64,000 nt of DNA. Origin: Rhizophagus irregularis (taxonomy: Eukaryota > Glomeromycota > Glomeromycetes > Glomerales > Glomeraceae). Below the pieces are notes generated by a model. The model saw only the letters and a program-made list of their open reading frames with translations, did no database searches and had not been told where the DNA came from. The stretch covers positions 3,934,501 through 3,998,500 of the forward strand of contig NC_089442.1 in NCBI RefSeq assembly GCF_026210795.1, in the 5' to 3' direction. This document shows, piece after piece, positions 11,095-33,939 of the stretch (position 1 is the stretch's first letter; each line of letters opens with the position of its first letter). Both the position numbers and the translations under genes were made by a program.

Positions 11095-12421
11095 TTAATA
11101 TAATTTTTTTTTAAAATACATGCAAACTATCGTCCCTGCTATTGCAGCAAGTAATGGTACTTGAGTATTCATTACTTTATTGGATAAGTAATGTATAATT
11201 GAATTTGTATCTAATGGTAGTGGAAGTGCATTTAATTTTTCTTCAAATTCAGTTCTTCGATCTTCCAAAAAAGAACGAATTTTTGGCAATGACCGTTTAT
11301 GTTCTTTTCTTTGTAAATCACTTAATTTCATCGTTAGATTTTGCAATCCGAATCGATCAAATGGCACATCTTCCCAGATTATATGTTGTTTAAGTTTTCT
11401 AATTGTTTCCTTTTCCAATTCATCTGGATCCTCATGGATTTCTGAAAGAACACTGGAAGGATTTCTTATAACATAAGTACCATTTACAAGTCCTTGACCT
11501 TTTACAAGAGTAGCAAGTTCAAGGTGTTTTTCGTCATCACTTTGATGATCGACGATACGATCCATCTTTGTTAGGACACCTACTGTACGTTGACCGTTTG
11601 GATCTGTTTCACGCGCAAGACGACACGCGCATTGTGTAGCTATATCAGAAGTTGCCTGAAATACAGGAACCAAGATTGTTGATTCTTTTTTAATATACTC
11701 ATTTACCAAAGATAACACAAAAGCTTCATTGTTTTCATCACTTCTTGTAATTCCTAAATAATGCGTAAAAAGAGACGTTAAATAATGAAATTTTTGCATC
11801 TCCCTCCCCTTAATTTTTTCTATTTACCGGGTAAGTCGACCAAAGATAAATTGTACATCTGTTCTGGACCACTGATTGTAACACATACAACATTTTTTGT
11901 ATAAGATAGCTCATCATCAGGTGGCAATCGTTCATTTTTAAAATTAATACTCGGATTCTGTACGTAACGTTGAGCTTCGCGCAATTTTTCTTCTATTTCT
12001 AACTCATCCAAATCTGTTATAACAGCAAAATCAACTTCACTTGGATGTATCGGCTCACGATTTTTGTTTTCTACGTAACGTAAAGATATTTTATGTAATG
12101 GTTCTTCACTTTGTAACATACGAATTTTGAAAGGGGCGACTGTACTTTTTGTGGATCCCCTATTATGAAGAAATTTTTTTTAAAAAAAAATGAAATAAAA
12201 TAAATTATAATTTTTTTTCTTTACCTTGGCAATGGTAAACCACCAGTTAAACGTTGTAAAACGGTACTTTTGCCACTCGATTGATCACCAAAAACAATAA
12301 TTGTTGGATTATTTTCTTCAAATTCATGGTAAAATGCTTCAAGTTTCTTTATTTCGCTCATAATGTCAATATAATCTCTTGCACTTGACGTTTCTGCTAG
12401 TGGAGAATTTAGTCGAACCAT
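11095..12421 (-). CDS. Short tail-anchored dynamin-like GTPase (copy B)
   Basis: Three exons (12421-12225, 12159-11828, 11753-11095) sum to 1188 nt (395 aa). Intron positions match copy A. The GTPase domain looks intact: GDQSSGKST, PRGS, DLPG and TKMD. Compared with A, the protein leaves the dynamin pattern just after EKLNALPLP, so the stalk and GED are absent. It ends instead in a hydrophobic segment, TQVPLLAAIAGTIVCMYF, followed by KKKLY. A single C-terminal hydrophobic segment with a short basic end is the layout of a tail-anchored membrane protein, for example of mitochondrial, peroxisomal or ER membrane; the organelle is inferred only. Without a stalk it cannot assemble like ordinary dynamin, but it could associate with A through the GTPase domain. 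Confidence 0.85.
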
Positions 12422-12783
12422 CTTGATTGAATTATTTCTCTAAATTAATGAAATTAAATTGCATTTTATACTGGTTTTTTTTTATAATTGAATTTTGAGT
12501 ATGAAATTCACGGAATTCTTGCATTTTTTTAGGTTAATTACTTTTTTTTTTTTGGAATAAAAAAAAATTTAAAAAAGGTTAATAAATTTAAGAAAAAATT
12601 TCTTTAATTCATTGTTTCTAGTTTATTCCTAATAAAGCTTTTATTAAAAAATTTTTTCAAGCATGTTTTTTATCTTTGAATGAAATTTTATATTATAATT
12701 TTACTTTTAAAATACGCCATTTTTCACACGATTAATCGATAAGGTCATGTATGCATAGAATAATGCGTAGAATGCAAGAATCC

Positions 12784-12841
12784 CTTATTTCTATAATGAG
12801 TAAGTATTTGTTCCAAAAGTCCCAAAAGTGTTATTAAATGA
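12784..12841 (-). promoter_or_regulatory. Conserved upstream motif, copy B
   Basis: The core on the plus strand, CTTATTTCTATAATGAGTAAG (12784-12804), is followed by CCAAAAGTGTTATTAAATGA, ending at 12841. The second block is shared with copies C and D. It lies about 360 bp 5' of the copy B start codon. Confidence 0.5.
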
Positions 12842-13685
12842 GGCAGATTGCCTCCTAATATTTAATTGTGTTACAATTGTGTACTACCTGAATCATTTAG
12901 ATAAGGGTTTTAAGTAAATTCGGATAAAATGATGGCAATTACTAATATAAACTAATTGGAATACAAAACGTAACCTGCGGGAATATTTCAATATTAAGTA
13001 TTAAATGAAATTTGTTAAAGTCCGAATAAAGTTAATGTTGAAGATATCATCTTATTCAGCATGTTTATAAGTTATCCGGTTTCAAAACTTGTTGATGGTA
13101 ATACAAGCTTCACTAACGTGTACGGAGATATATAGGAAAATTCCGAAGAGGATGAGTCATTTTTCATTTGTAAAGTGGGACAAGAAAAATTTGGAGAAAA
13201 CCTGATCATTTGATCAGCTTGGTGTTTTACATTCACATGATCGTTTGGATATGACAATGATTTTTTTTTAAATTTATATAACAGATATTAAGAACCTTTA
13301 TACCCATCTTGCATTCAGAATATTGTTGTTTTGTTAAGTTTCAAGTTTCTGAACATATCGGGAGAAAATATGATAAATTTGAATTTCGCGTAAATGATAA
13401 TACAATGAAACAATGTGGCCGATTAATATTTAAAAAGTAATTTTACGGCCATGATTTTAATAAAAACCGATAAAAATATTTACTAACATCTTAATTTAAA
13501 TATTGAAAGTTATCGATTATTATTTAACGCAAGAAATCTTATTAACATAAAGAAAAAAAATTTTTGAAAATTTTTTGAAAAGTAGCATTTGTAACTTAAT
13601 ACATAAAATAGATAATGACAAAAAAATTATAAAGCTCGCTCGTTTACAATGATCCGATAAACAGGTTACGAAAGAGAATTAAAAC
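12842..13685. other. Non-coding gap between copies B and C
   Basis: AT-rich DNA holding the far upstream flank of copy B and the downstream flank of copy C. A weak 61-codon open frame on the minus strand (13257-13072) lacks an ATG start and shows no recognisable motif. Confidence 0.4.
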
Positions 13686-14743
13686 TCAGATCAATGACCG
13701 CTCACGTAAATTTCTGTGTAATTCACTTAATTTTATTGTTAGAAATTGTAACCCATATCGATCATGTGGTATATCTCTCCAGATTCTTAGTTGTTTAAGA
13801 GCTCTAATTGTCTCTTTTTCCAACTCATCTGGGTCCACATAATTTTCTGAATTGGTAGGATTTCTTATAACGTAAGTACCATTTACAAGTTTGTGTTCCC
13901 CTTGACCTTTTACAAGAGTAGCAAGTTCAAGATGTTTTTCGTCATCATTTGGATAATCGACAATACGATCCATTTTCGTTAAGACGCCCACTGTACGTTG
14001 ACCAGTAGGATCTGCTTCACGCGCAAGACGATATGCGCATTGTGTATCTATTCCAGAAGTTGCTTGAAATACAGGCATCAAAATTGTCGTTTCTTTTTTA
14101 GTATATTCTTTTATTAAAGACAATGCGAAATTTTCGTAGCTTTCATCATTTCTTACAACTCCTACGTGTAATTTTACCGAGTATTAAATTTTTGAATTTC
14201 ACTCCACCATTTACTTTTTCTATTTACCTGGCAAGTCGATTATGGATAAACTGTATATCTGGTCTGGACCGCTGATTGTAACACATACAGCATTTTTTGT
14301 AAAAGCTAACTCATCAGAATCAGGTGGCAATCGTGTATTTTGAACATCTGAAATACTCGGATTTTTTATATAACGTTGAGCTTCACACAATTTTTCTTCA
14401 ATTTCTTCCTCATCAAATTCAGTTATAATAGCAAACTCGACTTCCCTTGGAGATACCGGTTGATGATTTTCGTCTTCTATATAACTTAAAGAGATTTTAC
14501 GTAACGGCTCCTCAGCTTGTAACAAATGAATTTCAACTATACTAAGTGTGCGTATCCTTTTTATATTGATTGTATAAGGAATAAATTTTTATTTGTAAAA
14601 AAATAAATAAATAATAAAATTTTTTCTTACCCTGTCAATGGTAAACCGCCAGTTAAACGTTTTAAAACAGAACTTTTGCCACTCGATTGATCACCAAACA
14701 TAACGATTGTTGGTATATTTTCTTCAAGTCCCATCTCGCACAT
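13686..14743 (-). pseudogene. Degenerate dynamin-like copy (copy C)
   Basis: Three segments align with the exons of the other copies: about 14743-14633, 14569-14228 and 14153-13686. GTPase motifs survive (FGDQSSGKSS, DLPG, TKMD), but both ends are damaged. The usual N-terminus (LNSPLAET and the following helix) is missing: the frame upstream of MCEMGLEEN runs into a stop. The C-terminus ends at RERSLI, about 30 residues before the point where B and D gain their membrane tail. Splice junctions still look usable, so a short GTPase fragment could be made from the internal ATG at 14743, but decay is more likely. The start of exon 2 resembles copy E rather than A, B or D. Confidence 0.65.
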
Positions 14744-14922
14744 AATGTCAACAATCTTTTGGATTAGATACTCTTGAAAAATTTAGAGGGAGAAAAAAAT
14801 CGCTAATGAAGAAAATTAAGCTATACTTATAGTCAATTCTTTTTTTGCAATGAGCACGGGTTTGATTATTCTAATCCTAATACGGGTTTGATTTATCAAA
14901 TGATTATCTATAAGGCTAAAGG

Positions 14923-14979
14923 CTTGTTTCTATAATGAGTAAACTCAATAATGATTATTCCAAAAGTGTTATTAAATGA
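14923..14979 (-). promoter_or_regulatory. Conserved upstream motif, copy C
   Basis: The core on the plus strand, CTTGTTTCTATAATGAGTAA, is followed by TTCCAAAAGTGTTATTAAAT (from 14958). It lies about 180 bp 5' of the first usable ATG of copy C. It has survived although the gene is damaged. Confidence 0.45.
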
Positions 14980-15955
14980 ACGGATGTCGAAAAGTGATCT
15001 TCGGTTAGGAAGATAACGGAATGGACATATGACTTCGAATTATATTTTAATGAATTAATTAAACATGTAAAAAGAAAATTCGAGAACAAATTTTAAAATT
15101 GAATAAGAACAGAGAAGCATTCTTGAAGTATTTGTGTGGCATTGGCCATTTGTCGTGTATATAAATTGCATTTGATTCCTAACATTTAAGAAATAGGCAA
15201 AAAATAAATATTAATTTATCGTATATACTCCTGTATTGTAGCATGTTAGTGTTTATTTAATCCGATTATGATATTAAATATAGTATGGTAAATTATTAAC
15301 ATTCAAATATTTATTATTTTGATAAAAATTGGATTAAAATAGAATGCAAAATTAGTTGTCCAAAATTAAAATTGCTTGAGAAAAATTAATTGTCTCCAAG
15401 CTTAAAATTACCAGATATTTTACTTACTTATTTTAGAACGTCTAGAAGGACAAATCACTAGGTATGTTGGATATATGATGTTCAGAAGGCGTGTAGCTTA
15501 TAAGTATACTATCATGTGGAGTGATCTAAATTTTTAATCTTACTGAGGGTTGGTAAATTCAAATAATTCTAACAATTTAGATTTTGAAGATAATGATTTA
15601 GGTTTGTTTGCGTTCTGAATGTAATTAACCAAATACACATTGGCCAAATATGAAAGCATATAACTTATTATAAATATGAATTATCGGAAATCATTTTATA
15701 ATCGACTTAAAAAATACAGTTTTTAAAGAAATAGAAATGTGTGAAGAAAAAAAAAATTGTTGAAAAATTATAATTGCCCAATATCATTTATAAGAACTTT
15801 TGAATGTAAAAAATTAGTTCCTGAATCATAGCTACAGAGAATGAAGCTTAGTGGCGCAGCAATTTATAACTAATTATTCTACTCTCGCGTAATATCTCTT
15901 AAACCTATATATAAAAGCTTATAAATAAAGCAAATGAATGACTTTTACATATACT
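14980..15955. other. Non-coding region between copy C and the radical SAM gene
   Basis: About 1 kb of AT-rich DNA. I see no convincing ORF, RNA gene or repeat. Confidence 0.45.
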
Positions 15956-17578
15956 TTAAAGTTCATTAGCGATTCTCATCATTTCTCTCCATTCGCCTTT
16001 TGTAAATGTTGGACTTTCTACTACATGTGGTATACCTTCACTAATTCGTTCTTTAGGCAATTCACTATCCAAATCCACACTACTTAAAGTTTCTTCTTTC
16101 AAACCCAATTCTTCCTTTCTTCTTTCCAACTCAGTACCTCTCAATAACATTAAAGGCCAAGCAACAACTTTTTCAGCACCTAAAGTTTTAGCGAATTCAA
16201 TACTTTCTTTAAAACTCTCAACAGTCTGATGTGGTAATCCATAGATCAAAGAAATTTCAAATTTAATATTATTTTTTCTTAATAATGATGAATTTTCTTT
16301 AACAGAATTTAAATTATTCATTCGTTGAATAACTAATGATTCTTTTTTAATAATACTTTGTACTCCAAATTCTAATTGAATATTTGCATTTAATTCATTA
16401 ACTAGCACTGAACATTTTTCAATAAATTGTGGTTTGATCATTTCAAAACGAGTTTGTAATGATAGTTTTCCTTTATATTTATATTTTATTAAATTATCTA
16501 ACGTTGATAAATAATTTGGACCGGAATTAAACGTGGGATCGAGAACTGCTATGTCGTTTACCGGTGAAGAAGTTATTTCTTGGATTTCAGAAAGAGTTCG
16601 TGGCGGGGAAAGTGCTTGTCTATTTGTATAAGTATCACGATGTTGACAAAATGTGCATTTGAATGGACATCCACGTTGTGTTTCCCATCTAATAAATGAT
16701 CGATTACTTAAGGGAATAATGGGTGAATTCACCAATTTGCTTTGAGAAACATTATTATCTAAACTAGAAGCGTTCTCTAAAGTTTCAACGGGTAAGAAAG
16801 GAGAAGGAAGAGATTCCATATCTACGGCGGCTTGTATTCCCAAATCAGGATGTCCTCGTTGATGTAATCCTTTAATTTTATGCAAAAGCATAGTCGGATT
16901 TGAAATATTTGATGATGTAGTGGATATAGGTCGTAAAAAACATTGTTGATGTGTTGCGAATTGGTATGATGAGGTCATATTGCCCGAACTTGTGACGTGA
17001 GTTGAAAGTGTTTCTACAACCTTAGAAACCGCTTTTTCGGCATATCCACGAATAAACAAGTCAGCGTCTGGATAATGACCTTCTAATGTATTAATTGGCG
17101 CATAGGATATCTATCGTGCATAAAAAAAGATTAATAATTTACATAAAAATAAAAATTAGTTAATATTATTTCTTACCTGAGGACCTCCTAATAAAATTAA
17201 CGGTTTACGAAGATAATCAATCATAATTCGTCCTTCTCCTCTTCCTTTTCCAGAAAATCCAATCGATATGTAATCTCTCTCTTTAATTCTCTTTCTAAGT
17301 TTTTTTAAGATTAATTGAGTATGTAATTCATTCCAAATATATACACCAAAAGCAATTAAATCCGGTTCATCGTATATTAAATTCTTTACAACATTCTCAC
17401 TAAATTCTTCTACGTCCGGACAATATTTAACAGAATATCGATGATCATTTAAAAATGTTAGTTGATTCGAATTATATTTCTGTAAAGTGGCAAGTATAGA
17501 TGCGTGTCCTAAATTTGTTAATGGATCTTTTGGACGTATCCAATCCAATGACACTAATGCTAATCTTATTTTTCGCAT
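15956..17578 (-). CDS. B12-binding-domain radical SAM protein
   Basis: Two exons (17578-17177 and 17110-15956) give 518 aa. Residues 1-165 form a cobalamin-binding-type Rossmann domain: ALVSLDW, then DLIAFGVYIWNE, then PLILLGGPQISYAP and DADLFIRGYAE, the usual pattern for this architecture. A radical SAM domain follows: RWETQRGCPFKCTFCQHR carries the CxxxCxxC motif for the 4Fe-4S cluster, then FEISLIYGLPHQT and EKVVAWPLMLLRGTELE. A Ser-rich insert separates the two domains. The architecture is mainly bacterial and no substrate can be assigned. The gene has an ordinary fungal-type intron, so it is settled in the genome rather than a contaminant. A bacterial origin by transfer is plausible but unproven. 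Confidence 0.82.
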
Positions 17579-19856
17579 TATTAGAAAACTTAATTTTAAC
17601 TTAATTTTAAAAGAGTTTTATGATATGAGTGTAGTTTAAATTATTTAATTAGATTAGATGTTTTGAATGGCGTTAAATGTTTGTGTTTTCGTGTTACTTT
17701 TAAGTTACCTCTTGAACATTCGGTGCAGGAATTCACGTGGAATTGGGAATTAAAAATTTTCGGTAACATGACTTGACTTTATTTATCTCTTTATTTCGTT
17801 AATTTGCTTATCATCTGAAATATCATCTGAAATCTAAAGTTGAATTGGTCCTTATTTGTCGCGATTGTGTGTCAATTTACACGCTAATTTCACGTGCAGG
17901 GATAATTTCATAATAAATCTTCAAATAATTCCACACAATTTTCACACAATTTCCTTCCGCGCCTATTAATTAACTAATAATCTGGGCACAATTAAAACGC
18001 AATTCCCATAATATGCATAATATGCGGGCTGCGGCATTTACTATTTAGTAACGGGAGAAATCATTCTGTAGCTTATCCTAATAAAAGTTAGGTGAAATTA
18101 TCACATGTAATATGCAAAATCGTGACACCGCCACAAAAACATCAATATGTATATATATATTCGTCCCTGTTCACGTGTCATAGCTTAACTTCTGCGTGGG
18201 ACAGGAAAGTCACGTTATCGAAAATTTTGATAAATATCACGTTTCTTATCATTTGCGTTTCTGTAAATATTTCTCTCCTGTTTTTCTTACGCAATACACT
18301 CGATTTTTAACTAACCGACGATTCTTCAGATTTAATATACCCAAGTTTTTCTGATCTTTTAGCATATGCATACCAAGTTTACCAACATAAAATTTCTAGT
18401 TGTTTTTTTTGATATAATTGTGTTAAATCTTGTGATGTGGACTTTCCTCAGCGTCATTCATTACTTTTGATGGATTCTTCCAATAGGCACGGATAGTTCT
18501 AAATAACCTGAAACCATGCTCGCGGATGATACTTGGAGACGATTGGCTTATTGTCTTTATGATCGTCTCTTTATGATCGAGCTTGTGTATTATTATTTGT
18601 AAAGAATCATCATCATCATATCGTTTGTGAAGTCGTTGCTAATATAACTTACCGTGTAATGGGTTCAGCCTCTTATCCGGCAAGTTCCTTTCTGTAAGTG
18701 TTCGTTGCCCATGAGCGCCATCTCTCGCCAATCCTAGTGAATTCATGATAGTTTCCGGAGGAAAGCGCAGATTTTCCTTTTCATTGGGTATGGGAAATAA
18801 GAGCACGAAAGAGGCTAAAGCAAATAGAAATAGTCCGAAATTTATTGGTCGAAGTAATGAGAATCCCGAAATTTAAACAAATTAAGACATACTCTCTTGT
18901 TTTTATCTCTTTTCTACTAATTTCATTAACCACCATATTCGGTTTTGGATTAGAATGGTAAAAAATATCTTGGCAACAATCCGTCACTAACCTGATACAC
19001 TAGATCTCAGATCTTCATTATTATAATATAATGATAATTTGTCGACTACAAATTAAGATTTATCCCTAGATTATCCTGCATCAATGTGAGCACGCGTTCA
19101 TACGATCAAAATATGATCAATGAATGCTTCATTGACTCCTCAATTACCCAATTACCCACATATAAAAATATCTGGCAGAACTAAACTGTTAGAGCATTAA
19201 ATACCCTAAGCTTTATTTAAATGGTCAATAAAAAAATAAATTACATAGTTCAAGGTCTAAGCCCGAGATACATAGTTATGCTTCTATACTAAATATGTTT
19301 TTTAAAAAATTTTGTCCACGCTTCTTGATTGCGCTAACGGGCATACTATCCCTTAATAAAACAGCGGTCTCCTCTTCATGCCTTACGCAATTCGGTTGAG
19401 TCCTTAAGTAGCGAGATGCAGTATTTGGTCTCACTTTGTGTCTCAAATACGAATTCCAGTCTATGATATTTTCACAATAATTGAGTTAATAATTTTTGAA
19501 TTGGCATGAGAAACAAAACATCACATCTAAAATATTCTTTCACTATTGTGACAATACTAAATAGTCCAAATCGACATATCTATCAGATAACCAATAATTT
19601 AGTATATTACGAGAATAATTTTCGTTATGTTATGAAATAAGAGGCGTTACTTACATCACATAAACTTTTACTTTGTACTAAGTTCAGAACAATCCATTCC
19701 CCGGTTTGTTCAATTATTTCTTCAAGGAAGAAATATTGTTTGCTGAAAATTGGTACTTTCGAGAAGACTGACAGCAGTATGTAAGATAGAAGAAATGTAC
19801 TCGCAACACATAGCCTATTACTGCCTACACCATATTTTTATCCTGCGTAGAATATC
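17579..19856. other. Long non-coding stretch with one small open frame
   Basis: About 2.3 kb without a convincing gene. One 35-codon frame on the minus strand (18746-18639) starts with ATG and reads GLARDGAHGQRTLTERN. Its base composition is less AT-rich than its surroundings, but it matches nothing I recognise. A 10-bp direct duplication (TTTATGATCG) lies near 18570. The rest is featureless AT-rich DNA. Confidence 0.35.
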
Positions 19857-20694
19857 GTAGGTACTAAACATGGGGCCCGAAACCGAAACCTCCCGAAACC
19901 CTTTAGGTTTCGGTATATACCGAAACTTAGTTTCGGGATGGGTGTTTTTTTCCCGAAACTCGAAACCCGAAACTGACCCGAAATTCCCGAAACTTTTATA
20001 TACCGAAATATAACCGAAACCTATTAATTTACTTAATTAATTTTTATTAAAATAACTAAAATTATAACAATATTGAATTACTATCTGACATTTTATTAAA
20101 AAGACTTCTCAATTAAGTCCAAACATTTTTATTTTTATTTTTTATTTTTATGTTATAGATAGACTGTCATACAAGAGATTTAAGACATTACATAATAAAA
20201 TATGAATACTAATCAAAATATATAATTGTATGAAACTCCCACTTGAGAAGCCGCCCACCTTTTCAGTTATTCCCAAGACGAGAAGGCATGGCCTGCTAGT
20301 CCATAACATAGTAAGGGGTAGAAACTATACTAGGGAAGTGATATCTATATTAAAAGAAGAATGAAAATTAATAAAATTAAAAGAAAAACTATATCAGGTG
20401 AATTAATGTGAGACAGCCAAAGGCTTGAATGTAAAAAGTAAAGATGGTTATCAAACACGATATATTGAATATCGATCTATTAATTATTTAAATTGCCACG
20501 TGATTATCCAATCAACGAGTTTCTGGATATCGGGATTAGTTTCGAGATAACTGAAATTAGTTTCGGGTTTCGGGATTTATTTAGGGTTTCGGAACTTGTT
20601 TAGGGTTTCGGGTGAGGTTTCGATTCGTATATTCCGAAACCCGAAACTTTCGGAAATCCTCTCAGAGGTTTCGGGCCCCATGTTTAGTAGGTAC
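19857..20694. mobile_element. Non-autonomous hAT-like transposon (MITE-type) with target duplication
   Basis: The element is 19865-20686 (822 bp). Both ends carry the same 20-bp inverted repeat, TAAACATGGGGCCCGAAACC, and both are flanked by the 8-bp direct repeat GTAGGTAC (19857-19864 and 20687-20694). An 8-bp target duplication with short inverted repeats is the signature of the hAT superfamily. The outer roughly 150 bp at each end are full of CCGAAA/TTTCGG repeats in both orientations, probably transposase-binding sites. The AT-rich centre has no transposase ORF, so movement would need a transposase from elsewhere. The intact target duplication and perfect terminal repeats suggest a fairly recent insertion. 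Confidence 0.88.
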
Positions 20695-22077
20695 AGACTA
20701 CAGAGCTTAAATTTCGAAGAACTTTTTACCAGTCTATGTGAGAGTCTGGTACAGAAAAAAAATCAAAAAATTCAGTGTACGCACAGTGAAAAACAATCAT
20801 TAAAAAAAATTAGTGTTACGTTCCTTTTTGGACACATTCAAAAATTATGTTGTAAACTGAATGATCATGTGAAAATTAATTCATAATCTGGGAAATGCCA
20901 TTTGCCGGTCACATTTAATAAATGTTACACAGTAAAAGAAGTGAAATTAAATTAAATTAGCAATATTCGAATAAAAAATTAAATAATAATAATAACACAT
21001 AACTGGGGCTCTTTAAGAAATTTAAGGAATTGAAAATTAAGTTTAGATCCTCAATCATATAAAAATCCTTGCCTGATAACGATCAAAATCCAAAGTGAAA
21101 ACGTAAAATTATTAATACAAATGATTTTGACCGCCTGGTCACACTCGACGTCAAAATTTTTGCATCTTTTCATTACTCTTCATTGTAATTGCCATGAAAC
21201 AATTGAAACATCTTCTACCAAGATTCATTAATTTGTAAGACTTACACTGAGAATTCCAAGCAAATACGGGATTTCATCATATAATAAGTTTTTTAATGTG
21301 ATTATCAATACTCGACTACAAATATATATAGTTTATTTATATTTTCTCCTAACATAAAATTAATCGATATTTCCCCTAGGAAGAGTTTTCTCGTTATATT
21401 AATACAGTATACTATAAACACTCAGATTAACCGATATATGAAGTGGTATATTGTAACTTCATTTATCATTTGTTTAGTATTTCATCATTCTACGACGTAA
21501 TACCTGTAAATATTAAATACGTGTTTTCTACAAAATTCTTTCAATAATCATAATAAGATCTTTATGAATAGATACATTTACTAATATAATAAAAGTAATT
21601 AATTTAAAGAATTCATCTAAAGACATGCTTCAAATTACGGCCGTTTCAACATTGATAAAATTGACATAACAAATCATATCTGATATGGTTTATTAGCTTT
21701 TAACATAGTTTGGCCAAAATAATTTAAATCATATCCTTGCATTAACGAAAATGATTTATATTCAATTCATTAATAAGAACATTATTTCACTTTTTTAGAT
21801 TTAAATGTTGATTGAAGAGTACCTGTTGATAAGGTATTTTGGTAAATTAGTTGAATCATACCGATTCCGGATAATAACTTTCATATTGAAAAAAAAGTGG
21901 AGAGGAAATATCAAAAAAAAAAAATTTAGAACGGAAATTTTTTAAAAATACGAAATATACTAAAAAAAAATATGATTTAATACACATGTACATATAAATA
22001 GTAAAAGTTTTTATAATACTAATAAAAAATAAGATGGTTTTACTCAATAATTAATTCAGCAAATATGCAATTATTTT
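20695..22077. other. Non-coding region downstream of copy D
   Basis: AT-rich DNA with no recognisable gene. A frame at 20596-20886 straddles the transposon border and is not credible. Confidence 0.4.
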
Positions 22078-23426
22078 CTACACAAGGAAAACATTATAAA
22101 AATACATGCAAATCATCGTTCCCATTATTGCAGCAGGTAATGGTATTTGTGTATTCATTATTATACTGGACAAGTAATGTATCATAGGATTTCCATCTGA
22201 TGGTAGTGGAAGTTCATTTAATTTTTCTTGAAATTCAGATCTGCGATCTTCCAAAAACGAACGTACTTTAGGCAATGACCGTTTATGTGCTTTTCTTTGT
22301 AAATAACTTAATTTCATCGTTAGATTTTGTAACCCGAATCGATCAAATGGCACATCTTCCCAGATTATATGTTGTTTAAGTTTTCTGATTGTTTCTTTTT
22401 CCAACTCTTCTGGATCTTCATGAATCTCCGAAACACTAGAAAGATTTCTTATAACATAACTACCATTTACAAGTTGATGTTCACCTTGACCTTTTACAAG
22501 AGTAGCAAGTTCAAGGTGTTTTTCGTCATCACATGGATAATCGACGATACGGTCCATCTTTGTCAGGACGCCTACAGTACGTTGACCGTCCGGATCTGCT
22601 TCACGCGCAAGACGATACGCGCATTGTGTAGCAATATCAGAAGTCGCTTGAAATACTGGGACCAAGATTGTCGTTTCTTTTTTAATATATTCTTTTACCA
22701 AGGATAAAACAAAAACTTCGTTATCTTCATCGCTCCTTGTCACTCCTAAATGAGACGTAAGAAAAAGTTAAATAATGGAATAATAAAAAGTTTTTAATCA
22801 TATTTCACACTCTCCCTCAATTATTTACCTGGTAAGTCGACCATCGATAAATTATATGTCTGACCTGGACCACTGATTGTAACACATACAGCATTTTTTG
22901 TATAAGCTAACTCATCAGAATCAGGTAATCGTGTATTTTCAATATCTGTAATACTTGGATTCTGCACATAACGTTGAGCATCACGCAATTTTAGTTCGAT
23001 ATCTTCCTCATCTAAATCTGTTATAATAGCAAAGTCGACCTCTCTCGGAGTTACCGGTTTACGATTTTTATCTTCTATGTAACGTAAAGAGATTTTATGT
23101 AACGGCTCTTCTCTTTGTAACATACGAATTTTGAAAGGTGCAACTGTACTTTTTGTGGATTCCCTATTATGAAGAATTTTTTTTTTAAAAAAATGAAATA
23201 AAATAAATTATAGTTTTTTTTTTCTTTACCTTGGCAATGATAAACCACCAGTTAACCGTTGTAAAACGGAACTTTTGCCACTTGATTGATCACCAAAAAC
23301 AACAATTGTTGGAGCATTTTCTTCGAATCCATGATAAAATGTTTCGAGTTTCTTTATTTCGCAGAAAATATCGATATATTCTCTTGTTTTAGGAGTTTTT
23401 GTTAATGGAGAGTTTAGTTGAACCAT
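22078..23426 (-). CDS. Short tail-anchored dynamin-like GTPase (copy D)
   Basis: Three exons (23426-23230, 23163-22829, 22745-22078) sum to 1200 nt (399 aa). The layout and intron positions are those of copy B, its closest relative here. G1 is GDQSSGKSS, G3 DLPG, G4 TKMD. The switch-I region reads PRES instead of PRGS, a Gly-to-Glu change at a normally conserved place, though the following Thr is kept. After EKLNELPLPSDGNP the stalk is missing. The protein ends in the hydrophobic tail TQIPLPAAIMGTMICMYFYN and then VFLV. The topology is probably C-terminal tail-anchored with the GTPase domain in the cytosol. Confidence 0.85.
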
Positions 23427-23631
23427 TTCAATTAAATTTTATTAAATTATCTATATTAAAGAAGAAAAAATTCAGTTGTATTTTTGAGCGATGAATTTAT
23501 GGATGATTGGAAAATTTGACTTATCCCTAATACGGGGTTTATTAAAGATTATTTCGATTATTGAATGAAATTACATTTATGTTCATAATTATACTTTAAA
23601 AATGTTTATATACGCGTTCTTTTTCAATCTC

Positions 23632-23686
23632 TTGTTTCCGTAATGAGTAAGTCTATTTCATAAGTTTCAAAACTGTTATTAAATGA
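23632..23686 (-). promoter_or_regulatory. Conserved upstream motif, copy D
   Basis: The core on the plus strand, TTGTTTCCGTAATGAGTAAG, has one TA-to-CG difference from the other copies. It is followed by a block ending AACTGTTATTAAATGA at 23686, matching copies B and C. It lies about 210 bp 5' of the start codon. Confidence 0.5.
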
Positions 23687-24439
23687 ACAGTTAGTGATTT
23701 ACAAAATTTGGTTTAGACTATCTAAAGCGAGAGATTATTAGTAATAAATTATACTGAACTTATGGATAAAATAATTTTTCAACGAATTTTATTTAAAGTA
23801 GACTAAAGAAACGATCAATAACTCATATGATGATAATGGTTAAACAATTATTTTTGTATTCATTGAATTCATTGATAATAATATTAGGCATTGGAATATT
23901 ATCATGATTCATGAATTATTTTTAATAAATTTATTAAATGATCTTTTAATGAACATCTTTTTTACTAATGAAGTTGATAATGCGGAAATATGATATTTGA
24001 ATTGCAAGTACTTGAAATTAATTAATTTTAATTAAGGGCGTCTGCGTCTCCCAAATAATAAAATGAGGTAAATTCATGGGAACTCTATATGATTAAAGTT
24101 TGAATAGGGCGAATGATGCATCGAGCACTAACCTTGAATTAATTGTTTTTATTAATGATATGCATTATGACCGTTATAATATTCTTAAAATATGAGAAAT
24201 TTATAATTCGTAATAAGTGATTTTTATGAACGAGGCCACAACTTTAATGAGATTACTACCGTGTCGACGTAAATTCTATAATTACTGATTAACTAAATTT
24301 TCAACAGAAAAATAATTTTAAAACCTAGTGATAAAATGTGGAGCTTACATTTGTTTTTTAGACATAACAGTTGGCATAAATACATAAAACAAATGATAAT
24401 AAAAAATTATCTGTGCTTCAAATTGTAATATGCCCCGAA
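23687..24439. other. Non-coding gap between copies D and E
   Basis: AT-rich, with no convincing ORF or RNA gene. It holds the downstream flank of copy E. Confidence 0.4.
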
Positions 24440-25594
24440 TCAAAATAATAAATATACAAGGGAAGTTTCATTGCTTTCATAAGAAACCGGTAATTTAGGC
24501 TGATTGTCAATTTGGGACAAACCACAACAAGTTCGTACTCGTTCATATAATTTTATTGTCAGATTATGTAAACCATATCGATCAGATGGTACATCCCTCC
24601 AAATACTAATTTGTTTAAGAGCTTTAATTGTCTCTTTTTCCAACTCATCTGGATCCTCCCGAATTTCTGAATTGGTAGGATTTCTTATAACGTAAGTACC
24701 ATTTACAAGTTTGTGCTCCCCTTGACCTTTTACAAGAGTAGCAAGTTCAAGATGTATTTCGTCATCATTTGGAAAATCGACAATACGATCCATTTTCGTT
24801 AAGACGCCCACTGTACGTTGACCGGTAGGATCTGCTTCACGCGCAAGACGATATGCGCATTGTATAGCTATATCAGAAGTTGCTTGAAATATTGGAACCA
24901 AAATTGCCGATTCTTTTTTAATATATTCTTTTACCAAAGATAATACGAATTGTTCGTGGCTTTCATCGTTTCTTACAACTCCTACATGTAGTTTTAATGA
25001 GGCATAAAAAACGTATTAAATTTTTGAATTTCATTCCACCATTTACTTTTTCTATTTACCTGGCAATTCGACCATGGATAAATTGTACATCTGGTCTGGA
25101 CCACTAATTGTAACACATACTGAATTTTTTGTAAAATATAATTCATCAATATCAGGTGGCAATCGTGTATGTTTAGCATCTTTAATACTCGGATTTCGTA
25201 CATAACGTTGAGCTTCATGCAATTTTTCTTCAATTTCTTCCTCATTTAATTCCGTTATAATAGCAAACGTGATTTCCCATGGAGATATCGGTTGATGATT
25301 TTTGTCTTCTATGTAACGTAAAGAGATTTTACGTAACGGCTCTTCAGCTTGTAACAAACGAATTTCAACTATACTAAGTGTGCGTAACCTTTTTATATTG
25401 ATTGTATAAGGAATAAATTTTTTATTTGTAAAAAAATAAATAAATAAATAAATATTTTTTTCTTACCCTGTCAATAGTAAACCGCCAGTTAAACGTTTTA
25501 AAACAGAACTTTTACCACTAAAAAGATCACCAAACAAAACAATGGTTGGATCTTCTGGTATTTCTGCTAGTGAAGATTTTTGTTGTTGAGCCAT
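24440..25594 (-). CDS. Short dynamin-like GTPase with altered catalytic motifs (copy E)
   Basis: Three exons (25594-25467, 25388-25060, 24981-24440) sum to 999 nt (332 aa), an intact frame. The N-terminus is shortened and starts MAQQQKSSLAEIPEDP. G1 reads GDLFSGKSS: the Gln and Ser that in dynamin stabilise catalysis (Q40/S41 in human dynamin 1) are Leu and Phe. G3 reads ELPG instead of DLPG. G4 TKMD is kept. The protein may bind GTP but is predicted to hydrolyse it poorly. After LTIKL the sequence leaves the family and ends in an unrelated tail, YERVRTCCGLSQ...YLLF, without a clear membrane segment. It may be a regulatory decoy or an early-stage pseudogene. Confidence 0.7.
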
Positions 25595-25732
25595 TTACTT
25601 AATTTTTCTTTGAAAAATTTAGTTAAAAAAAAAATAATAATAATTTGATATATAAAGTAATTTTTGTTTTAAAGGAAGTTCAAATATATTTTACAATGAA
25701 ATTTTTTTTTTATTGCAAACTATGAAATTTTC

Positions 25733-25753
25733 TTTGTTTCTATAATGAGTAAG
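25733..25753 (-). promoter_or_regulatory. Conserved upstream motif, copy E
   Basis: TTGTTTCTATAATGAGTAAG on the plus strand, about 140 bp 5' of the start codon, followed by GAATTTGGAAAACTATT as in copy A. Confidence 0.5.
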
Positions 25754-26602
25754 TTTAATACGAATTTGGAAAACTATTAAAAAACAAAATGTATTTTTAA
25801 TAATTATGATTAAAAATCTAACTTTTTAAATAGCAATCAATCAAATTTTGTTTTGATTGATGCTAATTAAAAAGTAAAATAAAATCATAATCACATGTTT
25901 AACAATATATATAAAATTTATAAAATTTAATTTAATATTACATAATATTTACAACACGTAAATGTGATATTATATCAGGTATCCTCAAATTTAACTTTTG
26001 TGAGATTTCCGGTTATCACGCCAAATCACATCAAGGAGACAAGGACGCTAACTCCGATGCGTGTGTATATGAATTTGCAAATAGATTTGATTTGGTTATA
26101 ATGAAATATTAGGTAAATCTACTGATAATTTACAAAAAAAAAAATAATTCATTGCTTTTTTTCTCAGGTGTAAAATAATTATAAATAATGTATAATGAGT
26201 AATTCTAATTGTAATATAAAAACTTGAAGGCCTTACGCTCTTTTTTGAATAATTTAATTGGATGATTGGATGATTATTACCTTTCTATTCTAATAGTAAA
26301 GTCTTTCGAACAATTAAAAGTCCTGCTCAATTTAATTCATCATCATCATCATATTCACGTTAACAAATAAAAAATTAGGATATTTGATTGTGTTATCAAT
26401 AAGTTCGATAAGATATTTACCAAAGAATTTTTTTTACTATAGGAAACAAATCTTTGTCCAAACCATAGAAGTAATATTTGTTGTGGCAACATAAAATTTG
26501 ATTTTTTTTTTTTTTTGTCGAGATATTTTTATTGAGTTTTTAGATGAAATTGCACAAAATTGAATCATACTGAGTGACCATAATAATGTCAAAAAAATGT
26601 TC
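25754..26602. other. Non-coding region between copy E and NRK1
   Basis: AT-rich DNA with poly-T runs and a short CAT repeat near 26340. No gene is recognised. Confidence 0.4.
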
Positions 26603-28023
26603 TCATTTTTTCTTATTAACAATATGATCTAAAATCATCATTACCACCTTTTCAACATTCTTTGATATCATTGTAGGATGATCAGATTCTAATATAGTTA
26701 AATCATCTATTTTAATAGAATCTGAATTTAAATTTTCTATCTTTTCATTCCCTTTTTCTAATTTATCAAGTATATGTTTATTAGCTTTAGCATAATTTGG
26801 CCAAACTATATCATCAAAATAATTTGGTGGATCAACCCAAAATCCTATTATAATATATAAAATATTAGAATATTAGTAAAAAAATTAAAAGTAAAAAATT
26901 AAAAGTAAAAAAGTAAAAGAAAAAAACCAATGTTAAAATAAACATCTAAAAAAAACATGTAAAAAACATGTAAAAAACATATAAAAGCGTATAAAAAACA
27001 TATAAAAAACATATAAAAAACATGGTTAAATATTTTTACACATTTACCTTCTATAGTAACGTAAACAGATCTATTTTCTCTCCTAGTTTTTAAAGTATCA
27101 TAACTAGCATTAACGAATAATTTAGTATCTAATTCATTAATAACATCTTGATCAACATATAATAAGAATCCATCTACTAATAAAATATTCCATTCATCAT
27201 CATCATTATTATTATTATGATGATTATGATGATTATGATTATTATGATTATGATTATCATCATTATTATCATTATTATCATTATCATCATCTTTTTTTTC
27301 TTTTAATAAATTTTTTACTTTTTTAGATAATTCTTCAGCCAAATCATTTAATTCAATCGTTTCAATATCTTTACGTTCATTCTTACTTTCTTTAGATTGA
27401 AATGTTGATGGTAAAGTACCAGTTGTACGTAATTGATGAAGTACTTTGGTAAATTCATTAAAATCTACTGCTTCAGGACAATCCCAATTGTTTAATTTTG
27501 TTACTGGATCAATTGGAATTTCTTTTTCAGGCTTTTAAAAAGAAAATAATTGTTAGTTTTATAATATGTTAGGGGATATTATAAAAGTTGATTTTCTTTT
27601 TACCTTGAAAAAATCATCTTGATAAACTGTTTGTATATTTGGAAAGATTTTTTCTAACCATCTAACCAATGTCTATTAAATAAAAAAAAAGTGTTATTAA
27701 ATCAACTCAAAAAAAAAACAAATAAATAAATAATAATTTAATTTAATTTAATTTAATAATTTACGTACAGTTTTACCTGAACATGATGCTCCACTATCAA
27801 AAAAGAGAAAAAATACGCATATATATAAATTATAATTATAAAAATATTAATATATATTGATCGATAATAATTTAACATATAAAACATATATTATTCAATA
27901 TCGATATATCGATAATAATATTATCGATAATAATTAACATAATTAACATATATTAAAAACATATCAAAACATATAGAAATCTTTTTACCTAATCCCTACT
28001 GTAACAACTTTTCTATTTGTCAT
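26603..28023 (-). CDS. NRK1: Nicotinamide riboside kinase
   Basis: The enzyme phosphorylates nicotinamide riboside to NMN in NAD salvage. Five exons (28023-27989, 27793-27769, 27672-27604, 27531-27048, 26844-26603) sum to 855 nt (284 aa). The P-loop GISGASCSGKT is split between exon 1 (35 nt) and a 25-nt exon 2. Further family motifs are YQDDFFK, NNWDCPEAVDF, LLVDGFLLY and the lid RRENRSVY, then GFWVDPPNYFDDIVWPNY. An unusual insert of Asp, Asn and His (about 40 residues, exon 4), encoded by repeated AT-rich triplets, interrupts the protein before VDGFLLY; it is probably a disordered loop. Uridine kinase is the nearest alternative, but the WDCP-AVDF and FWVDPPNYF segments favour NRK. Confidence 0.88.
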
Positions 28024-28126
28024 TTTTTTTTTTTTTTACGTAAATATTTAAATATACGACGTAAATAAATGTAAATCAAAAATGAAAAGGAGAAAAAAAA
28101 AGAATTTTTTTTTTCGGTTCAATTAC

Positions 28127-28288
28127 TCAATTTAAAATAAAAAAAAATTTCGAATAAAATTTGTTTGGAAATGGATCACCTAATATGGAATAACCTTGAC
28201 GGGATTCAGTTAATATATTTAAACCTTCAAAAGAAATAAAAGACGTCCCCCCTGCATGCACATAAGATTTAAATAGCATAATTAACAT
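28127..28288 (-). pseudogene. Small open frame, possible gene remnant
   Basis: A 53-codon frame from an ATG at 28288. The middle reads AGGTSFISFEGLNILTESRQ, then GYSILGDPFPNKF. This looks like real protein and loosely recalls the first strands of metallo-beta-lactamase-fold hydrolases (a GH-S-F-I...G-NILTD-P pattern), but the expected metal ligands are not present. It lies between NRK1 and the synthase gene and has no obvious further exons. Probably a remnant. Confidence 0.3.
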
Positions 28289-28736
28289 TTTTCAACAATT
28301 TTTTTTTTTTTAATTTAATTGATAGATATGCTTTTATTAAAATAATAAAGTGTATATGTACAATTTATATAACAACGATAAAAAAAATAAAAAAATAATG
28401 ATATAATATGATGTAACTAATAAAAAAAATATAATGTCGTGATAAATAAAAATCGAAAAATGAAAATTTTGAAAAAAAAAAGCGCTAATTAGTTGTAAAA
28501 TGAAAAAAAAAAATTTTTTTTTTCCGAAGTGTTTTAAAAAGTTCGTAATTTTTTTAAAAAAAAGTTTTTTAAAGATAAATAATGAAATTTTTTTCCGCCG
28601 TGAAATAGAAACCAAAAGATTGTATCGAAATATCAAAAATAGAAAAATAAAAAAATAAAATACAAAAAAATATATATATATATAAAAATAAATGAAATAT
28701 ACAATAATATCGATAATATCGATATTATCATTTTTT

Positions 28737-31700
28737 TTATAAGAAAGTAAAGTTATATAAATACATGCAGATAAACATTCCTATTATTGCAACAGGTAAC
28801 GGTACTTGTGTTTTTAATATTATACTAGTCATATTCTTTTTATCAGAACCTTTGAGTAAAGGAAAACTTTTTCCAGATGATGATGATGATGAATTAGGAC
28901 TTCCACGTTGTGAGGTAGCAACTTTTTCTAACATTAATGGTCTAAGATCCATACTGCCTCTTCTATTTTGTATTGGCATATCAAATTCTCTTGCCAAACG
29001 TCCCGCTGTTTCTTCACGTAATACATTATAATGATGCCCTGATATTGGACGATGAAAAGTTATTTCACCTTGATAATGTTCCCAGCCGAAATTTGATTCA
29101 TGGAATGATGGATGATCAAGTAATAATTTACTTGTCTTTCCTGCATAATCTTTTGCTCTCCAATAATGTATTGGAAATTGTTGTACTGATTCATTAGTTG
29201 TATGATCGGAAGTATAAGAATACATTGAAGCGATTAATTTTCCAATTTGTCTTTTAAATGCTTCAATTTTTGAAGGGTCCTCATTTTCGGCACGAACCAT
29301 CCATTGAGAATCAGCATCATTTAATAATTGTTCAATATCATCTTTCCATATTATATGTGGTTCTTCATCGTTAGTTAGATTACGAACACTTTTTTGAAGT
29401 GGAGCAGGAGCATCAATTAGATAAAGACCACCAACTTTAACTCCATTTTGTTGTAATAATTTTGTCATTTCCCATGCAACTAATCCACCATAAGAATATC
29501 CACATAAATAATAAGGTTGAGTTTGTTGATGTAATAGGATAGCTTTTACATATCTTTTAGCAATAACTTTAATATCATCATCAACATCACTTGGAGCTTG
29601 AATTCCATATACAGGTCTGTTGATTCCAAGATTCTTGGCAAGGAGGACATAACTTGCAACATTACCCAATAAAGGATGTATACAATAAAGTGGTGAATTA
29701 TGTTTATTAACAACATTCTTTGGAGCTAAAGGTATTATTATTGGATCTTCTTTTCCATCATCTTCGAATATTAAATCATTTTCTTGAGTAGTAGTGACGT
29801 GAGATTTTCTTGATTTCTTTTTATTGGTACGTGTTTCTTCAACGAGTAATTTATGAACATGATTACTTAAATCTGCAATGGTATGAACATCATATAATAA
29901 TGCGGGAGCTACTTCAATACCAAAACTTTGTTTCATTGAAGCGGTCAACTGCACAGCAGCTAATGAATCAAAGCCATAATCAGTGATAAGATTTGCATTA
30001 ATGTTTAATTCATTCTTTGGGATTTTTGAGGCTAATTTGGAAATCATATGTACATGACTAGTAATATTTTCTTGAATGTCTTCCAATGATATAGTAGGAT
30101 TCTCATCTTCTCCCTCATCATATACTTCAGAATTTAATGTTGATAATTGTTTTAATATGTGACCGGCTAAATCAGATATTGTAGGTAAGTCTAATAAAAG
30201 AGCAGGGGCTATTTCAATACCAAATTCATCTTTAAGACAGGCTGTTAATTGAACGGCAGCTAATGAATCAAAACCGTAAGTTGTAATTAAATTTACTTTA
30301 AAATCAATTTGATCAATTGATAATTTGGAGGCTAATTTAGAGACTTTATGTACGTTAACGGCAATTTTTTGTTGAATTGTTTCTAAGGTCATTAAAGGTT
30401 TCTTTTTAGGTTTCTTTTCTTTAATATCGACTACATTCATGGGATCTTGTACAATTTCTCCTACACTGGTTATAATCTTTTTATCCATTGAACCATTAAG
30501 TAATAAATCTTTTGCTTTTGCACGTTGAAGTTTTCCACTTGTTGTTTTTGGTATACTATGTTGTTTTAATATAACAATACGTTGACATGAAAGACCATGA
30601 TTTCCTGGTACAACTCTTGCGATACAATCACAAATTTCTTGTAAAAGTTCTTGTTTAATATCTTTTTGTTGACGAATTTCTACGAGGACAATAAGTGAAT
30701 CTGTACCATTTTCAACATCAGTATGATTTATTGCGCAAATACATCCAGGTCGAATTGCATTATGAGATTCTTGAACTGTTAGTTCAATATCTTGAGGATA
30801 ATGATTTTTCCCATTTATAATAATAACATCTTTTTGCTAATAATAATAAAAAAAAAAATTCGATTAATAAAAAAAAATATATAATATAATTTTTATACAC
30901 ATTAAAAAAAATTATATATATACTTACACGTCCTGTGATGAATAATTCACCATTATATAAGAATCCAAGATCACCGGTTCTTAGGAAACTACCATTATCA
31001 GTTATCCAATTACCATGATCATCATTATCCAATTTTGCTCTAAATGTTTCTTCACTATTTTTTTCTTTACCATAATAACCTTTACCTACACTTGGACTTG
31101 ATACCCAAACTTCACCAATAGTATTTGGAGAACAAAGTTTTTTAGTTTCTTGATCTACAACTCTAACTTCAACTTGCATCATTAAATTTGGTACACCAGT
31201 TGAAACTATATTATTTGCAGGAGAATTATCATTATTACTATTAGTTAATGTATTATTTCGTACTTTAACACGACCTTCACGAAGTGGGATAGGATCAATA
31301 TCAATAACTGTTGGTATATCATGAAGATTTCTAAATCCTACAGAATAAGCACAATGTTCTGCTAAACCATAAAGACATTTAAACATTGAAAGTTTAAATC
31401 CTGCAGGACCGAATTTTTTAGCAAAAGATTTTAAAGTTGACCAACGTACAGGTTCAGCACCATTAAAAGCACCTCTTATAGAATTCAAATTCAAATTTTT
31501 TATACTATTATTATCACATTTTCTTGCAGCTAATTCATAAGCAAAATTTGGTGCAGCAGTAAATGTAGCTTGATAATTTGTTATCATTTGTAACCAACTT
31601 TCAGGTTTTTGTAAAAATGTTAAAGGTGACATAACAACAGATTTACAACCTCCACGTATTGTATTTAAGAAACCTCCAATTAAACCTAAATCATGAAATT

Positions 31701-33939
31701 GTGGTACCCAAAAAGCTATAGTATCATCAGGTCCAAGATCTATTTCAGTTTGCATAAGGTCAACGTTATGTAATAAATTTTTATGAGTTAACATAACACC
31801 TTTAGGATCACCAGTACTTCCGGAAGAAAATTGTAAAACTGCAACATTATCACTATCAATTTCATCAATTAATTTTTCATCGAATAGATCATGTGATGAA
31901 ATAATATTTTCCCCTTCTACCCAAATTAAATCTTCAGGCCATTCAATTTTTTTTCCAAAACCGAAATAACTTTTAGCAGCATATAATTTTGTGTAGAGCA
32001 TATAATTTTTATCGGAAAATACTAATTTAGCACCAGTTGTTTGTGCCAAATATTTAAATCTTGCAATATCTTTATCAGCTGTAGCAAGATTTGGTGGAGC
32101 TATAGGAACAGCAATAATTCCTGCCAACATACATCCAAATAATATAGGTAAAAATTTAAGACCTGGAGCATAACAGAGTAAAATAGGATCACCAACTTTA
32201 TGACCTGCGTTATTTCTTAAATAATAAGCAACACATCTTGCTTGTTTATATAATTCAGAATAAGTAATTTTTGCTTCTTCACGTAAATTAACATCTACCC
32301 AAGTGAAGGCTACTTTATCAGGATATCTTTTTGCTGCTAATCGTAAAAGCATACCCCAATTAAGATTTGAAGCGGGTTTAATATCAATATGAGGTAGAAC
32401 AGGTAAATGTAATGATTTTTCATTTTTTCCTGATAAATTAAAGAAACGTCGGACCAAGTCACGTGAGTATGAAATACAATTTTCAGTAAGTTCGAAATCT
32501 AACCAGCCTCCAACATAAAAAGTTCCTTGTTCTCCTTGAACATTTTCAACTTTACTATAAAAACCTCTAGCCATGCTTAAAGATGAAACTAAGAAAAAAA
32601 AAGCAAGTGAGTTAAAAAAAAATATAAATATAACTAATTAATATTACACAAATTTTATATAATTACCATGAGGGAAAAAATCCCAACGTTGATTATAATG
32701 AATTTCTTCTAATTCACCGCCCATAGATATTATATCTTGTTTTAATAATTCAGTAACTTGTTCAGGACCAATATCTTTATTTCCATAAGCGTAAAATATA
32801 TAAGTTGGAACACCTTCATGAGCACAATAATAGGCAGTCGTGTGACCAACATAACGTTTATCAGAACAATATTTCGGTATTGTTGTCATTCCAACTTTTG
32901 TTGATAAATTTTTTACCGTTGCAATAATGGTATAAAAATCAAAAGTAACAACTTGAGAGAAAAGATGGGATTCCAAAGGTGATGGGGTAGTAATGAATTG
33001 TTCAGTTTGCCGAGGGTTTGTGGCAATTATTATGTTATCAAAAGCTAATGTTTGTTCAAAATTATTGAGGGCGTTTTTTGTGGTAACGAGGATAGGACCT
33101 AAATTTTTTTGTTTTAGGGAACGATCAATGGAAATTACTTTGGAATTGTAAATTACATTGAGGTTCTTTTTAATGGGGGGAATTAACGGAAATTTTAATG
33201 GTTAAATAGAGTAAATTAGTAAAAGGTTAAAAAAAAAGTTCAACGTTAAGTAAAAGTTACATAAATTTAAAAAATTTATACATACTTTGGACATTTTTGA
33301 CCAAAAATCTTGGAAACCGTTTTTAAAATATGAAATGGTGTTTTCGGAATTTTCGATGAATTTGAGGAAATAAGCAGCGGGTATATCATCCTGGATATAA
33401 CCATAACCAGCACTAGTATAAGCCAAACTCCAAGCATCTTTTAAATAGGACATATTACGATCTTTTAAAAATTGAGTAATAGGAGCATATAATTCACGTT
33501 CACTTAATTGACCATGACCAGGACAAGAAATATCCAAAAAAGATTGTTTTTCCTCTAAATAATGACTTATATTTGGAAGTAATTTAGAATAAATTCCAAT
33601 TTTATTTGTATCATTAACTAATATATTATTATTTTCAATATCTAATGAACGACCAGTAAATGTTTCAAGAGGACAATCAAGTTCAGAAGCGAGAGATTTA
33701 ACGTTTGTGTAATTATGACCGACCATCAAAGCTCCTACGTCGTAACCTCGATTTTCATGAAAGAAAGTAGCAGATTTTCCTGCTATATGAGAAGAAGATT
33801 CTAATAAAGTTAAATTATTATAACCTTCTTTTCTTAAGAAATGAGCGATTGATATGCCAGCGGGACCGGCACCTATTATTCCTATATGGGAATTTTTTGG
33901 GATCGGTTGTGATGAATGTGATATCGATGTGTAAGACAT
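28737..33939 (-). CDS. FAD oxidoreductase / fatty acyl-AMP ligase / ACP-ACP / thioesterase fusion with hydrophobic tail
   Basis: Four exons (33939-33286, 33165-32667, 32588-30928, 30836-28737) sum to 4914 nt (1637 aa). Residues 1-435 form an amine-oxidase-like FAD domain: GIIGAGPAGIS, NRGYDVGALMVG, FFPHVS, then TFYVGGWLDFEL. Residues about 455-1045 are a fatty acyl-AMP ligase: SSGSTGDPKGVMLTHKNL near 640, the YGLAEHCAYSVGF core, RTGDLGFL, GELFITGR joined to QKDVIIINGKNHYPQDIE (a FAAL hallmark), and TTSGKLQRAKAK with the late Lys. Two acyl carrier domains follow, each with GFDSLAAVQL; the pantetheine Ser are at 1129 and 1229. The thioesterase has CGYSYGG (Ser 1386), a likely Asp near 1413 and GHHYNVL (His about 1540). 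After a Ser-rich linker, TQVPLPVAIIGMFICMYLYN forms a C-terminal membrane segment. It probably activates, modifies and releases an acyl chain; the product is unknown. Confidence 0.85.

Follow-up and report, generated by a model that had tools for sequence, protein, structure and literature searches.

Probable capture of a lipid synthase C-terminal tail by a neighbouring dynamin gene through local duplication in Rhizophagus irregularis

How two dynamin-family GTPases and an otherwise unrelated lipid-type synthase came to end in the same hydrophobic tail is the question raised by a 64,000-nucleotide stretch of the Rhizophagus irregularis genome (contig NC_089442.1, positions 3,934,501 to 3,998,500), referred to here as the window. 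The answer that we favor, with a probability of about 0.6, is that a local duplication captured the tail of the synthase onto a dynamin gene, making the chimeric dynamin copy D. The original prediction, made from the sequence alone, had placed hydrophobic C-termini on dynamin copies B and D and on the synthase; all three were found in those positions, with a few last residues of each to be added. Copy B ends in NTQVPLLAAIAGTIVCMYFKKKLY (stop at 11095), copy D in NTQIPLPAAIMGTMICMYFYNVFLV (stop at 22078) and the synthase in KTQVPLPVAIIGMFICMYLYNFTFL (stop at 28737), all on the minus strand. The genes and their tails are positioned as follows:

11095..12421, minus strand: chimeric dynamin copy B (83.7% identical in DNA to copy D across 1380 columns, counting the tail)
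11187-11098, minus strand: tail of copy B, part of the chimeric copy
22078..23426, minus strand: chimeric dynamin copy D, 399 amino acids, composed of a G domain, the first stalk segment and the tail (public models P0001 and P0002)
22081..22173, minus strand: tail of copy D, probably captured (DNA alignment and shuffle tests)
28737..33939, minus strand: synthase gene, exons 33939-33286, 33165-32667, 32588-30928 and 30836-28737
28740..28832, minus strand: synthase tail, the probable donor copy, homologous to the tail of copy D (blastn E 2e-15)

The likeness of the tails is also present at the DNA level, as had been predicted. Within the window, blastn aligns the D and synthase tails over 74 bp (22167-22094 with 28826-28753) at 83.8% identity (E 2e-15) and the B and synthase tails over 56 bp at 77% identity (E 5e-4). 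The local score for D and the synthase is 94, compared with a maximum of 48 in 1000 dinucleotide shuffles, and that for B and the synthase is 59, compared with a maximum of 52 in 1000. When the residues of the D tail were shuffled, which preserves its hydrophobic composition, the 14 of 21 identities with the synthase were reached in 0 of 20,000 trials; the likeness of D to the synthase thus exceeds that of random hydrophobic C-termini. The start of the tail, which reads N-x-Q-[VI]-P in the majority of clear cases, shows conservation beyond hydrophobicity alone. The tails of B, D and the synthase are homologous, and the dynamins and the synthase are otherwise unrelated, in agreement with the original prediction.

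The position of the junction and the DNA behind copy D provide the evidence for how the tail was acquired. Four further features are needed here:

7705..10523, minus strand: full-length dynamin copy A, without the tail (Dynamin_N, Dynamin_M and GED present)
22167..22185, minus strand: fusion junction, within one exon, between the part homologous to copy A and the part homologous to the synthase
26603..28023, minus strand: NRK1-like kinase gene, exons 28023-27989, 27793-27769, 27672-27604, 27531-27048 and 26844-26603, spliced product 284 amino acids
21683..21875, minus strand: decayed NRK1-like remnant in two colinear pieces, 21875-21749 and 21721-21683 (shuffle scores)

Homology between A and D stops at 22185 and homology between D and the synthase starts at 22167, with no intron at that place in either parent. 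Shuffling of a tail exon was rejected because the junction lies mid-exon; in D, B and the synthase alike, the tail runs on from the exon body without a break. The two parents, copy A and the synthase, are close by and, like the chimera, are encoded on the minus strand at this one locus. The NRK1-like gene stands behind the synthase, and this flank of the 3′ parent was carried along behind chimera D, where it is seen as the remnant. The original prediction had raised the question of how far homology extends; it stretches past the tail behind D, in the form of this remnant, and not behind B. The two pieces have the same order and orientation as in the kinase gene and score 82 and 49, where 2000 shuffles for each piece reached at most 48 and 40, and the loci of two distant NRK paralogues score just 42-43 and 37-38. 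Among 1704 scanned stretches of 150 bases (852 positions, both strands), those reaching these scores belong to the kinase gene and, for the second piece, also to the remnant. Because a decayed colinear copy of the kinase stands behind D, we infer a segmental duplication, and most simply a tandem one.

The kinase was named from its spliced 284-residue protein, for which the best solved relative in the PDB is nicotinamide riboside kinase 1 (E 2.9e-17); partial pieces searched against Pfam and the PDB gave no decisive result. Since a Funneliformis gene model runs the synthase straight into the NRK kinase, the two genes would already have been adjacent before these genera split. The NRK1-like gene contains a long Asn/Asp/His-rich insert (27048-27531), and two further NRK-like loci are found on contigs C16 and C30.

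In the route that we propose, the tail would be ancestral to a lipid synthase of Glomeromycotina and would serve there as the C-terminal membrane anchor. Within the Rhizophagus lineage, duplication of the segment running from the synthase 3′ end through the NRK gene to the 5′ part of a dynamin gene would have had one breakpoint in the synthase, just ahead of the tail, and the other in the dynamin, after the first stalk segment. At the new junction, the tail and 3′ end of the synthase would have been fused in frame behind the G domain and first stalk segment of the dynamin, giving chimera D, with a second NRK copy and then the full dynamin behind it. The NRK copy would since have decayed, and copy B is most simply explained as a later copy of the chimera. 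Two truncated dynamins complete the cluster:

13686..14761, minus strand: truncated dynamin copy C, without the tail (reading of the window and DNA comparison)
24440..25549, minus strand: truncated dynamin copy E, without the tail (reading of the window and DNA comparison)

The order along the minus strand is synthase, kinase, copy E, chimera D, kinase remnant, a radical-SAM gene, copy C, chimera B and full-length copy A, and it agrees with a tandem duplication solely on the assumption that copies E, C and B arose later. Among ten pairs of upstream flanks, sharing was seen for A and E (z 10.3), B and D (7.7), A and B (7.1), B and C (4.9) and C and D (3.7); ten pairs of downstream flanks showed no further duplicated sequence (highest z 1.7).

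The direction of transfer is indicated by the distribution of the tail. We counted 13 records of the Glomeromycotina-type synthase, of which P0019 and P0025 represent the same R. irregularis gene and P0032 and P0033 are both from Ambispora; the tail or its start is visible in 11 of them. It is clear in P0019, P0020, P0025, P0026 and P0028, cut short in P0029 (a partial record) and P0027 (where the gene model continues into the next gene), and divergent in P0030-P0033. No tail was seen in P0034 and P0035, the models of which are rearranged or run into other proteins. The identities with the D tail were reached in 0 of 20,000 residue shuffles for the synthase tails of R. irregularis, P0026, Glomus, Cetraspora and Dentiscutata; for the divergent tails of Acaulospora, Diversispora and Ambispora the counts were 470, 131 and 24 of 20,000, a weak likeness. 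P0026 is an unbroken 1639-residue frame on a 5176-bp contig, and introns 1 and 2 of the window synthase contain stops; P0026 therefore appears to be a cDNA assembly, and if so the tail would be transcribed in its source fungus. Among the dynamins, 6 of 18 records carry the tail: P0001 and P0002 (two models of copy D), P0003, P0004 (Rhizophagus diaphanus), P0005 and P0007 (Rhizophagus clarus), all from Rhizophagus or without an organism name. The search admitted proteins of 0.55 to 1.75 times the query length, a range outside which full-length dynamins fall, so that absence of the tail from dynamins of other genera is weakly tested. Because the tail is present in most synthase records and tailed dynamins only in Rhizophagus or nameless ones, the synthase is the probable donor, with the tail ancestral to it.

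The donor protein is larger than the acyl-ligase/thioesterase fusion originally described, which lacked the N-terminal flavin adenine dinucleotide (FAD) domain preceding the ligase. Spliced from its four exons, the synthase is 1637 residues long, equal in length to the public R. irregularis record P0025 and 99% identical to it over residues 900-1637, and similar full-length records exist in other Glomeromycotina. The domain order is FAD domain, fatty-acyl-AMP ligase (FAAL), two carrier domains, thioesterase and tail. The best solved whole-length relative of the FAD domain is 2b9w (residues 13-434 aligned with 3-423 of 424, E 2.9e-37), titled 'putative aminooxidase' in the PDB, which we take to be the polyunsaturated fatty acid isomerase of P. 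acnes; the consulted portion of one paper using 2b9w, where it served as an FAD control, does not confirm or settle its name. On this sequence relationship the domain is assigned as putatively fatty-acid-isomerase-like. In the 60 of 121 matches shown, the ligase is nearer to fatty-acid--AMP ligases (FadD23, E 6e-76; FadD32, about 1e-66) than to coenzyme A (CoA) ligases (about 1e-16 and weaker), though it did not reach the curated NCBIfam cut-offs. This ligase type is not new in Glomeromycotina, since the consulted part of one study already notes FAAL-containing candidate clusters there, in which the group is unique among the genomes studied (PMC8070225). Glomeromycotina are also reported, in the parts consulted of two papers, to be without type I fatty acid synthase (PMC7732545, PMC8070225). 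At the DNA level the two carrier domains (29868-30077 and 30168-30377) are duplicates of each other, with 68% identity over 210 bp; just one seems to be present in the Glomus cerebriforme model P0020.

On the acceptor side, the original prediction described B and D as stalkless dynamins. Most of the stalk and the GED are indeed missing, while the first stalk segment remains. Copy D (P0002) matches Dynamin_N (PF00350, E 4.5e-28), with Dynamin_M and GED below cut-off, and P0004 retains a sub-threshold Dynamin_M match (17.4, with 28.5 required). The best solved relatives of copy D are in the dynamin superfamily (Mx1, 4p4s, E 2.3e-21). It has in common with Mx1, Vps1 and dynamin-1 a GTPase domain with P-loop, DLPG and TKMD motifs, and B and D differ from them in carrying the hydrophobic tail in place of most of the stalk and the GED. 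Since omega between B and D is 0.29 over 395 codons, both are suggested to be working proteins. Copy E has ELPG in place of DLPG and an altered P-loop (GDLFSGKS), and its GTPase may be impaired.

A dynamin tree of 13 rows (the five window copies and eight relatives selected from the 18) allows a single origin of the tail, in 82% of 200 bootstrap trees, a value equalled by shuffled labels in 51 of 500 trials. P0005 falls among the A-type rows and six of the ten inner branches are open; gene conversion or poor resolution clouds this tree. P0005 is a tailed dynamin with a G domain grouping with A-type rows, which could reflect 5′ gene conversion that kept the tail, or a second capture.

The tail is most likely a tail anchor, predicted to hold the synthase and the GTPases on a membrane with their enzymatic parts facing the cytosol. 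In each of the five tailed dynamin records measured, no 19-residue stretch is more hydrophobic than the tail (mean 1.3-1.7, elsewhere at most 1.02), and in eight synthase records the 19-residue mean of the tail is 1.45-2.59. The idea that all three proteins may share one membrane, put forward in the original prediction, is a plausible hypothesis; the joint action of acyl chemistry and GTPase-driven remodelling there, also put forward, would be a further hypothesis. Because the ends of B, R. diaphanus P0004 and P0005 are basic (KKKLY, RKKLV) and those of D and the synthase uncharged, sorting of the tails may have diverged. A dilysine-type signal (KKLY) at the end of copy B was considered and set aside, since a tail anchor would place KKLY on the far side of the membrane. 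The products would be membrane-anchored GTPases with little stalk that work through pairing of their G domains, at or close to the synthase membrane, and not as helical collars. Tentatively, and with considerable doubt, we suggest that through one local duplication a stalk-bearing Mx/Vps1-like dynamin became a tail-anchored GTPase with the membrane address of the neighboring synthase, and that the two would share an organelle membrane at which these lipid-fed mycorrhizal fungi process plant-derived fatty acids.

Several observations weigh against parts of this account. The remnant is without the 5′ exons of the kinase and lies closer to the tail than the kinase does in the parent, for which later deletions must be assumed; the 3′ flank of the NRK gene is not matched downstream of the remnant (z 0.2), and the search for an NRK remnant behind copy B found none (score 37, reached by 143 of 300 shuffles). 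The position of copy E between the NRK gene and D needs an additional event. At the protein level, the public copy B model P0012 stops ahead of the tail, and omega over the 25 tail codons, too few sites, is 0.64 for D and B, 0.79 for D and the synthase and 0.61 for B and the synthase. Hydrophobicity is lower in the dynamin tails than in most synthase tails, and the tail of P0025 (1.88) is exceeded by a stretch inside its ligase (2.37), so hydropathy alone is no proof of an anchor. An AlphaFold2 model of copy D (P0002, 18-row alignment) gave a predicted local distance difference test score (pLDDT) of 39 and a predicted template modelling score (pTM) of 0.26 and is unusable. A partial remnant close to the tail would also be expected from ectopic, non-tandem copying, in which a fragment with the synthase tail and part of the NRK gene was inserted into or behind an already truncated dynamin; the tailless truncated copies C and E nearby, and the finding of no longer duplicated flank, point the same way. 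Such copying requires truncation plus a separate in-frame insertion, however, and the shared orientation of all the parts, within a single stretch of 33 kb, is what a tandem event predicts. We consider it rather unlikely. Somewhat more improbable still is neutral read-through, with the tail an inert piece of captured 3′ sequence staying open by chance and B and D decaying truncated dynamins. The near-neutral tail omega on few sites, the persistence of C and E without a tail and the tailless model P0012 would agree with this, but the tail is open and hydrophobic in every tailed gene seen (B, D, P0003, P0004, P0005 and P0007), and omega between B and D is low over the whole gene.

The remaining alternatives concern the origin of the likeness itself. 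That the synthase acquired its tail from a dynamin is strongly disfavored and very improbable. The D tail is as close to the R. irregularis synthase tail as either of them is to the G. cerebriforme synthase tail (67% each), and the tails alone do not root the transfer; but the tail is present in the synthases of Cetraspora and Dentiscutata and, more diverged, in those of Acaulospora, Diversispora and Ambispora, tailed dynamins are listed in Rhizophagus and nameless records only, and the NRK remnant stands at the dynamin, with no dynamin remnant at the synthase. Convergence, in which hydrophobic C-termini of a common type arose separately, would find some encouragement in the frequency of hydrophobic tails and in the Acaulospora and Diversispora shuffle counts (470 and 131 of 20,000). 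For D and the synthase it is refuted by the DNA identity (83.8% over 74 bp) together with the NRK remnant, as well as by the 0 of 20,000 shuffles for the R. irregularis pair, and we give it practically no weight. Of the origins offered in the original prediction for a shared module, duplication is thus retained, and convergence and free exchange are not.

Local duplication of the synthase tail onto a dynamin has a precedent in its mechanism. In Drosophila yakuba, according to the consulted part of one study, tandem duplications that ignore gene borders couple a gene's 5′ end to the 3′ end of its neighbor (PMC5460883). Those chimeras are described there as young population variants, whereas the Rhizophagus fusion is old, in frame, mid-exon and kept in at least three named species; it also differs in having moved a probable membrane anchor and carried a neighboring gene along. 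The mechanism of making a chimera by duplication is known, and what is new is the variant of protein architecture. Atlastin and Sey1 are membrane-anchored dynamin relatives in which a GTPase head is held by a C-terminal hydrophobic part. A membrane-held GTPase head would be common to them and to B and D, which differ in being of the Mx/Vps1 sequence type with one short, foreign tail. The synthase shares the order of ligase, carrier and thioesterase with bacterial FAAL - carrier - thioesterase proteins and differs from them in its additional N-terminal 2b9w-like domain and its tail; such a tail was found in 0 of 14 relatives chosen from 120 listed (best 19-residue mean 1.04), three of which end in another domain. 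At this locus the donor, the acceptor, the junction and the flank that came along can all still be read, showing a protein gaining a probable membrane address from its chromosomal neighbor. It makes accessible to experiment a dynamin-family GTPase from which most of the assembly stalk has been lost and to which an anchor has been added; if the proteins do share a membrane, it would be a direct case of gene adjacency creating protein co-localization. A further point of interest is the synthase itself, a conserved Glomeromycotina enzyme of the isomerase-like/FAAL/carrier/thioesterase type that is probably membrane-anchored.

The genome (146.7 Mb in 32 contigs) was searched for further copies of the tail. 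The last exon of copy D gave eight matches among 10 scored candidates: five dynamin exons at the locus, the synthase tail (E 2.9e-4) and two distant matches on other contigs (38-39% identity). Searches with single tails at E<=10 returned tails of this locus only (2 of 2 candidates each). Matching C-termini thus appear restricted to the locus, on the basis of searches seeded by single sequences and not by a profile as originally envisaged; the synthase query missed B, and the B query and the DNA query missed the synthase, and tails elsewhere that have diverged could escape searches of this sensitivity. No Rfam match at the gathering score was found within 10000-34500. Titles and opening lines of abstracts on Rhizophagus dynamins, tail anchoring, fatty acid isomerase/FAAL and chimeric genes, a scope that left out most subscription papers, contained nothing concerning this locus. 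The radical-SAM gene within the dynamin cluster, between copies C and D, spans 15956-17617 (PF04055, E 2.9e-12).

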